Assembly: GCF_005239095.1 (NCBI RefSeq)
Contig: NZ_SZUA01000001.1
Span: 1,345,049-1,409,048, forward strand
Length of the DNA: 64,000 nucleotides
Direction: 5' to 3'
From: Luteimonas gilva
GTDB lineage: Bacteria; Pseudomonadota; Gammaproteobacteria; Xanthomonadales; Xanthomonadaceae
Notes under the pieces: generated by a model
What the model was told of the DNA's origin: nothing
The model's input: only the letters and a program-made list of their open reading frames with translations
Database searches by the model: none
In this document: one piece after another, positions 33,156-35,301 of the stretch
How positions within the stretch are numbered: position 1 is the first letter of the stretch
How the letters are laid out: each line of letters starts with the position of its first letter
Translations under genes and position numbers: made by a program

Positions 33156-34610
33156 TTAACCGACGGATGCGCCGAGCGCGACGAGCGCGGCCGCGGCGGT
33201 GTGGAACGAACCGAAGATCAGGACGCGGTCGCCCGGCTGCGCTTGCGCCAATGCCGCGGCCAAGGCCTCGGGCACCGTCGCATGACGCGAGCCCGCACCG
33301 GCGGCGGTCGCGGACAAGCGCTGCGCGAAGGCGTCCGCGCCGAGGCCGCGCGGATTGACGTCGGCCAATCCGGCTAGGAACCAACCATCGACGCATTCGG
33401 CCAAGGCATCCACGACGCCCGCCACATCTTTGTCGCCCAGCGCCGCGAACACCGCGTACGTGCGTTTCGCCCTTGCGGGAGGGGCTTCAGCCCCGACCGC
33501 TTCTGTCGGGGCTGAAGCCCCTCCCGCAAAAGAATTCAACCATCTCGCGAGCTCGCGCGCCGCTTGCGGGTTGTGGCCCACATCCACCACCACTTCCACG
33601 CCGCCGCGATCGAAAGCCTGCAGGCGGCCGGCGACGTTCGCCGCAGCGACGCCCGCGATCAGCGCCGCATCGTCGATCGGTTCGCCCAAGGCGCGCAAGG
33701 CGGCGATCGCGGTCGCCGCGTTGCGCAATTGCGCGGGCGCGGCCAGCTTCGGCGTCGGCAATTCGATGCCGTAACCGATCTCGCGCCAACGCCAATGCGC
33801 GCCGTCGATGCGTTCGAAGAAGAAATCGCTGCCCGCGCGCAGCGCCGAAGCGCCGATGGCGTAGGCGTGGCGCAACACGCTGGCCGGCGGATCGTCTTCG
33901 CCCAGCACCAGCGGCTTCCAGGCGCGGGCGATGCCGGCCTTTTCGAAGCCGATCTTCTCGCGATCGTCCCCGAGATAGTCCTGGTGGTCCAAATCGACCG
34001 TGGTGATCACCGCGACGTCCGGGTCGACGATGTTGGTGGCGTCCAGCCTGCCGCCTAGGCCGACTTCGAGGATCGCTAGATCCAGATCGCCGCGCTCGAA
34101 CAACCACAATGCTGCGAGCGTGCCGTATTCGAAGTAGGTCAGCGAGATTCCTTCCCCTTCTCCCCTCGGGAGAAGGTGCCCCGCAGGGGCGGATGAGGGT
34201 TCGGTGGAAACGCCGACATTCGGGTTCGCGTCGCTATTCCGAACCCTCGCCCCAACCCCTCTCCCGAGGGGAGAGGGGCTTAGCCGCGCGGCTTCGATCG
34301 CTTCGAAGGCCTCGATCAAGGCTTCATCGCTCGCATCCTGACCGCCGATACGAACGCGCTCGTTGTAGGCGAGCAGATGCGGCGAGGTGTAGGCGCCGAT
34401 GCGCCAGCCCGCGGCCTTGGCGATGGCTTCGACGAAGGCGACCGTGGAGCCTTTGCCGTTGGTGCCGCCGATCGTGACGACATGCTTGGCCGGCTTGCCC
34501 AAGCCCAGCCGCGAAGCCACTTCGCGCACGCGATCCAAGCCCATGTCGATGGACTTGGGATGCTGGCGCTCGACGTACTCCAGCCAATCGGCGAGGGATC
34601 GTCCGTTCAC
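33156..34610 (-). CDS. folC: Folylpolyglutamate/dihydrofolate synthase with two in-frame repeat insertions
   Basis: A 484-residue Mur-ligase-like enzyme that adds glutamate to dihydropteroate/tetrahydrofolate. ATP loop IGGTNGKGSTVAFVEAI, then AYTSPHLL, EVGLGGRLDATNIV, TTVDLDHQDYLG and the C-terminal VVVDVGHNPQAAREL are all intact. It is some 60 residues longer than usual because two palindromic repeats are translated in frame: residues 110-154 (34149-34283) between EAIEAAR and ISLTYFEYG, and about 361-381 (33468-33530) between ARWLNS and KRTYAVFAALGDKD. Both are at positions where homologues have short loops. The GTG start overlaps the stop of the upstream phosphatase gene (GTGA). Confidence 0.93.
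   Translation of the reverse strand: MNGRSLADWLEYVERQHPKSIDMGLDRVREVASRLGLGKPAKHVVTIGGTNGKGSTVAFVEAIAKAAGWRIGAYTSPHLLAYNERVRIGGQDASDEALIEAFEAIEAARLSPSPLGRGVGARVRNSDANPNVGVSTEPSSAPAGHLLPRGEGEGISLTYFEYGTLAALWLFERGDLDLAILEVGLGGRLDATNIVDPDVAVITTVDLDHQDYLGDDREKIGFEKAGIARAWKPLVLGEDDPPASVLRHAYAIGASALRAGSDFFFERIDGAHWRWREIGYGIELPTPKLAAPAQLRNAATAIAALRALGEPIDDAALIAGVAAANVAGRLQAFDRGGVEVVVDVGHNPQAARELARWLNSFAGGASAPTEAVGAEAPPARAKRTYAVFAALGDKDVAGVVDALAECVDGWFLAGLADVNPRGLGADAFAQRLSATAAGAGSRHATVPEALAAALAQAQPGDRVLIFGSFHTAAAALVALGASVG
33473..33529. repeat. Palindromic repeat inserted in frame in folC (second insertion)
   Basis: Perfect 25-base arms 33473-33497 and 33505-33529 with a 7-base loop; a variant of the 'ggagcggcttcagccgc' family with cores AGGGGCTTCAGCCCC and GGGGCTGAAGCCCCT. 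It encodes a segment rich in Ala, Gly and Pro in FolC. Confidence 0.95.
34149..34283. repeat. Composite palindromic repeat inserted in frame in folC (first insertion)
   Basis: 135 bases containing CCTTCTCCC...GGGAGAAGG, CCCCGCAGGGGC, then a middle flanked by GGGTTCGG/CCGAACCC, and CCCCTCTCCCGAGGGGAGAGGGG. It shares the 'ctctccc' core with the intergenic elements at 12725, 15018, 40869 and 46138. Confidence 0.93.
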
Positions 34611-35273: not shown

Positions 35274-35301
35274 CGTCATCCCGGCGCAAGCCGGGATGAC
35301 G
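35274..35301. repeat. Compact hairpin of the 'cgtcatcccggc' family
   Basis: CGTCATCCCGGC and GCCGGGATGACG with a 4-base loop, perfect, between serA and the phosphatase gene. It may act as a processing or attenuating hairpin within the unit. Confidence 0.93.

Follow-up and report, generated by a model that had tools for sequence, protein, structure and literature searches.

Rickettsia palindromic elements (RPEs), palindromes of about 105-146 bp, lie both between genes and, in frame, within conserved genes (PMC10969869, PMC2229807), and an RPE-bearing guanylate kinase was found to be translated and active, with an altered substrate affinity (PMC2229807). The enterobacterial RU/ERIC repeats (Delihas) are small mobile repeats with open frames that are found inside genes and fused in frame, but their hosts and sequences differ from those considered here, and the part of the source that we consulted notes no shared acceptor site (PMC2759123). 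REPs have been reported inside ORFs of several bacterial species, S. maltophilia and X. oryzae among them, and two Xanthomonas species carry different REPs at much the same position of recB (PMC3733652). Since REPs in Xanthomonas and Stenotrophomonas genes are already published, in-frame palindromes in Xanthomonadaceae are not new in kind. Among titles and abstract openings of the papers listed, we found no literature on repeats in FolC or PurL, and no published description of two core-enzyme loops that each receive several unrelated families of palindromes in different genera.

The gene at the center of this analysis is folC of Luteimonas gilva (genome G000), in a window of 64,000 nucleotides, the whole stretch of DNA that was analysed (Table 1). 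A first-pass annotation of the letters had described a 135-base palindromic repeat of an intergenic "ctctccc" class (here family 1), read in the folC frame without a stop and adding 45 residues between EAIEAAR and ISLTYFEYG, and had likened it to RPEs. As grounds for abandoning this reading it named the same segment in FolC of unrelated genera, or a second intact folC elsewhere. Coordinates, frame and inverted repeat were all borne out: the element (element 1) is 135 nt long and stop-free in the folC frame between these two motifs, and its arms (22 nt each) are 91% complementary. Its fold (-87.8 kcal/mol, z -7.1) was matched in stability by 0 of 200 shuffles and thus is not due to chance. In the alignment with E. 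coli FolC, the match runs to R116 and resumes at I119 (SLTYFEYG), with two residues between. Alignment with relatives therefore upheld the insertion, as E. coli and the empty relatives lack the segment; the net gain is 43 residues rather than 45, because empty relatives carry two extra residues at the site.

Table 1. Coordinates of folC and of the palindromes within it, counted from the first letter of the window.
Feature	Position	Strand	Remarks
folC, bifunctional dihydrofolate/folylpolyglutamate synthase	33156..34610	minus	ORF, GTG start at 34610, single copy
Family-2 palindrome (GGGAGGGGCTTCAGCCCC), also in frame in folC	33473..33529	minus	approximately residues 361-380; arms 33473-33497 and 33505-33529 (25 nt each, perfect)
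In-frame palindromic element, family 1 "ctctccc" (element 1)	34149..34283	minus	FolC residues 110-154; homologues without it, or with it replaced
Element 1 inverted-repeat arm	34155..34176	.	inverted-repeat detection
Element 1 other inverted-repeat arm	34257..34278	.	inverted-repeat detection

The protein read from this start, of 484 residues, passes two curated NCBIfam models (TIGR01499, 283 bits against a cut-off of 162.65; NF008101, 394 against 360) and has the FolC fold, which together place it among the bifunctional FolC proteins. folC is, in general, an essential gene. Searched against its own genome, the protein yields one match at E<=1e-30, and the Mur-ligase middle domain yields six hits, of which the five besides folC best match murE, murF, murC, murD and mpl (partial stretches); hence folC is single-copy, and no second intact folC was found in the genome, the completeness of which is given as 99.98%.

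Family 1 resembles the RPEs in being a palindrome of about 105-150 bp that has copies outside genes as well as in-frame copies within them. It differs in its host, a gammaproteobacterium outside Rickettsiales, in that most of the copies examined lie outside genes, and in that two loops are here filled by several unrelated families. Given a host in Xanthomonadaceae, we did not file the element as an RPE, and we liken it to RPEs by behaviour and not by sequence comparison. RPE counterparts are reportedly present in Wolbachia.

Within the genome, family 1 is dispersed. The 79 matches at E<=10 were grouped into folC and 40 other places, all of which were inspected; this number is a minimum (at least 40 besides folC), as a later comparison turned up further copies. 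The copies share the layout AGCCCCTCTCCC...GGGAGAGGGGTTGGGGTGAGGG, a variable middle, and CCCTCATCCG...CACCTTCTCCC...GGGAGAAGG. A stop-to-stop ORF spans the element by at least 100 nt on each side in 19 of the 40 places, and local scores computed on each side of each element indicate coding on both sides in only one of them, purL; a score over the whole ORF misses folC (-1.8) when its stop-to-stop ORF extends upstream. Elsewhere, several elements reach into a stop-to-stop ORF at its 5' end and were not counted as lying inside genes, including at two ORFs that we take to be similar to glyS and purD. Of 17 anchored genomic copies, 12 are open in the folC frame (10 and 5 in the other two same-strand frames) and 10 in that of purL (11 and 4 in the other frames), against a background of 33% of mononucleotide shuffles. 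The search for in-frame copies in other genes that the first-pass annotation had proposed thus produced purL. In-frame inserts are not unique to this gene or this genome, since purL and ligD have them here and other genera have them at the FolC and PurL sites.

The ligD case belongs to a second family, which also occupies folC itself. A further palindrome, absent from the first-pass annotation, lies nearer the C terminus than element 1 and in the same frame (fold z -10.8); the site is similar in G003, whereas the palindrome is absent in two other genomes of the genus, G001 and G002. Family 2 gave 80 genome matches at E<=0.001, a number in which one place is often counted twice, once per strand, and its best 30 loci comprise 18 distinct places including folC, among which coding sequence lies on both sides only in folC and ligD. 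The ligD copy (DNA ligase D, L200:1501-1554) is in frame in the stretch that separates the ligase domain match from the polymerase domain match. Family 2 flanks a Y1-transposase gene on both sides at one locus (L214) and on one side at another (L212), in the same way as REPs flank RAYT genes (PMC2817692), and by these neighbors it is of REP kind.

Family 1, in contrast with REPs and BIMEs, is longer, shows by eye no GT(A/G)G (GTAG included) or CGTC head at the ends of its copies (AGCCCCTCTCCC...GGGAGAAGG), and has no match at the six Y1_Tnp loci (3.2-3.4 kb each, two of them below the Pfam cut-off); these loci revealed no cognate Y1-transposase gene flanked by the family, and no enzyme that moves it was found. 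With terminal inverted repeats and no transposase of its own, element 1 has the form of a MITE. No target-site duplication was visible by eye when FolC and PurL inserts were compared with diverged empty sites. A sequence-specific target was considered and dropped: the sequence GCCGCGCGCGGC is frequent at empty FolC sites, yet only 24 of the 74 contain a palindrome of at least 10 bases centred there, and no palindrome is common to the 21 PurL sites without an insert that were examined.

FolC matches were found in 386 of the 395 genomes of the family Xanthomonadaceae. At the site of element 1, 21-52 extra residues, mostly a recognizable element, are present in three of the four genomes of the genus and in 11 of 38 Pseudoxanthomonas. 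Besides G000, the genus includes a full-length element (G002), a shortened one (G003) and a site with eight extra residues of other sequence (G001). The filled Pseudoxanthomonas sites hold 38-52 extra residues; among the remaining 27 genomes, 19 were read as an empty site of 12 residues and eight were judged empty by match gaps (3-9 nt in all 27). Thus, another genus literally carries the same segment, one of the two grounds on which the first-pass annotation would have given up its reading. The segment is nevertheless an insertion, because it is absent from a genus mate, from 27 of 38 Pseudoxanthomonas and from E. coli.

Different element classes occupy this one site. There are 107 distinct FolC rows, 16 of which have at least 30 residues where the empty stretch holds 12. 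Judged by eye from the DNA, six of these carry the right arm seen in G000, six carry another right arm, one is the short element of G003, two are too degenerate for assignment, and one (G096) holds an unrelated repeat class that matches its own genome 93 times, mostly over part of the repeat. No clear element was recognized in the filled sites of P. wuyuanensis and Lysobacter sp. M2-1. The 12 clear family-1 inserts share position, orientation and frame. On a quick tree of the 107 rows (insert columns left out; support by SH-aLRT only, weak on 35 of 104 inner branches), the filled and empty states require at least nine changes; P. sangjuensis, which is filled, and P. helianthi, which is empty, are sisters on it.

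The PurL loop, like the FolC site, is filled by several repeat classes in several genera. In G000, the family-1 palindrome (L180:2003-2128; C3:641502-641627; fold z -4.9) is in frame in a protein of 1360 residues and is read there on the element's opposite strand. The loop has 14-15 residues in 18 of the 38 Pseudoxanthomonas and 35-71 in 12; the other eight have a short loop, as judged from match gaps of 3-21 nt. The best 30 PurL loci of the family, which favor filled sites because they were picked as top matches to a filled query, include by eye 12 with the exact motif GEGARRADEG, four variants of it, three with a GTGD type that was judged a palindrome from its fold only, five of a GPAQ..RS type and six unclassified; the GPAQ type occurs in multiple copies in the genomes that carry it (20 matches in G023 and 21 in G342). 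Among 20 further PurL sites taken from the matches listed, two (G003 and G011) contain family 1, each together with further inserted material, and the other 18 have lengths of 12-27 residues. The clear family-1 inserts all have one orientation, and PurL inserts start at different codons. Both the FolC and the PurL site are filled in seven of the 38 Pseudoxanthomonas against 3.5 expected (Fisher p 0.017, with kinship ignored). The motif ADQWSASA, common to PurL inserts from three genera (L242, L286 and L308, the last adjoining a family-1 element), is perhaps a further repeat class.

The FolC sequence on either side of the insert is under purifying selection (dN/dS 0.13-0.19, computable for seven of 11 pairs). 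In the insert, dN/dS is 0.47-1.54 (nine of 11 pairs; identities only were available for the flanks of four pairs and the inserts of two), a rough estimate, as it rests on about 45 codons and hairpin pairing adds constraint. Selection therefore acts on the enzyme, and far less strongly on the added peptide. Between P. sacheonensis and strain CF125, for instance, the flanks have dN 0.027 and dS 0.214, and the insert 0.143 and 0.093. The AlphaFold2 model of FolC (49 sequences, from the window and relatives' loci) is mostly ordered (mean pLDDT 82.5), and its nearest solved fold is E. coli FolC (1w78, TM 0.92 by target length). Residues 121-152 and 362-375 fall below pLDDT 50, which predicts disorder in both inserts, and so do residues 78-83 outside the inserts; helices 95-110 and 159-172 flank insert 1. 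Thus, the structural mapping that the first-pass annotation had proposed puts element 1 in a predicted disordered segment between two helices, and the fold is predicted to be intact around the two inserts. Together with the constraint on the flanks, this supports the reading as an RPE-like in-frame palindrome in a housekeeping gene. The model of the PurL segment was poor (mean pLDDT 48) and was not used.

We consider it probable that a mobile, non-autonomous palindrome inserted into FolC and is read through as a flexible, dispensable loop, and that the site is re-used by several families. Such a repeat, with several dozen copies in this genome that lie mostly outside genes, would have entered between the helix ending in EAAR and the helix starting with SLTYFEYG. 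The length of the element preserves the frame, and the frame used is the one most often free of stops among the family copies, so that the ribosome would read through and FolC would gain the loop. Judging from the open frame, element 1 is probably translated as part of FolC and retained in the protein as a presumably harmless loop. Because the loop appears to tolerate very different peptides, elements of several families would land there over time, to be replaced by other copies, shrunk or lost, and the PurL loop would behave alike.

A rather unlikely alternative is that a single old family-1 insertion in FolC, and one in PurL, occurred in a common ancestor, was lost in most lineages and was overwritten elsewhere by recombination. 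It is simpler than recurrence, and the single codon position, orientation and frame of the 12 clear FolC inserts fit it well, as do the one orientation of the clear PurL inserts and short FolC sites resembling remnants (LSPASRGQ and ALRQAQDD). Apart from itself, the G002 insert moreover matches the folC insert of P. sangjuensis best (89%), although a dispersed copy in G003 reaches the same identity. Silent divergence argues against long co-inheritance with the gene: between G000 and G002, dS is 0.28 in the insert (dN 0.272) and 0.845 in the flanks (dN 0.125), and the inserts of G002 and P. sangjuensis are 85% identical while third positions of the flanks are 60% identical. The clean and scattered empty sites with their nine changes on the tree, the unrelated repeat class in G096 and the differing start codons of the PurL inserts also speak against a single origin. 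In a direct comparison of inserts, the G002 insert is 82% identical to the G000 folC insert, 83-85% to four other G000 copies and up to 87-88% to copies of its own genome. That it is no nearer the G000 folC copy, together with the low silent divergence, may point to turnover by repeated insertion or by conversion.

The insert could instead have been recruited as a loop with a selected function in FolC (binding, stability or regulation), which we regard as improbable. Its full-length persistence in several species is consistent with recruitment, and so are the four pairs with insert dN/dS of 0.47-0.63; the other five pairs (0.88-1.54), the predicted disorder and the many close relatives that lack the insert are not. 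A similarly low probability attaches to a more ambitious proposal, in which the FolC and PurL loops are standing acceptor sites for unrelated palindromes across Xanthomonadaceae and their occupancy has a shared effect, such as translated hairpins that set the synthesis rate of both enzymes. Even less credence can be given to a role of the insert as RNA, by which the hairpin would slow ribosomes or alter mRNA decay and so tune FolC output, with the peptide incidental; the very stable folds of both folC palindromes and the purL palindrome agree with this, but any mobile palindrome would fold so. It is scarcely believable that the segment is missing from the mature protein (through ribosome bypass, RNA removal or proteolysis) or that folC is decaying here, since the folC insert is stop-free and its flanks are constrained. 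In its favor, the P. sacheonensis purL insert (L239) does contain a TAA stop between flanks of low dN/dS (near 0.07 and 0.06 over 489 and 540 nt in the comparison with strain CF125), but this stop could have arisen recently or reflect a mistake in the draft assembly.

Read as insertion and read-through, these loci extend in-frame palindromes of the Rickettsia type to core enzymes of Xanthomonadaceae. The FolC and PurL loops represent natural, repeated experiments in the insertion of foreign peptides into a working enzyme, and the filled and empty alleles of close species make it possible to test how such repeats enter genes, whether they are neutral and how new protein segments originate.

Some minor observations concern the locus and the records compared. 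A different short palindrome (tcatcccggcgcaagccgggatga, window positions 35276-35299) lies directly upstream of the gene preceding folC. In Lysobacter chinensis, FolC is found at two loci (L105 and L106), which lie on separate contigs and show no difference over the stretch compared. The FolC of a record titled Bacillus subtilis SK7B5 (L128) groups with Stenotrophomonas, and the record is perhaps mislabelled or contaminated.
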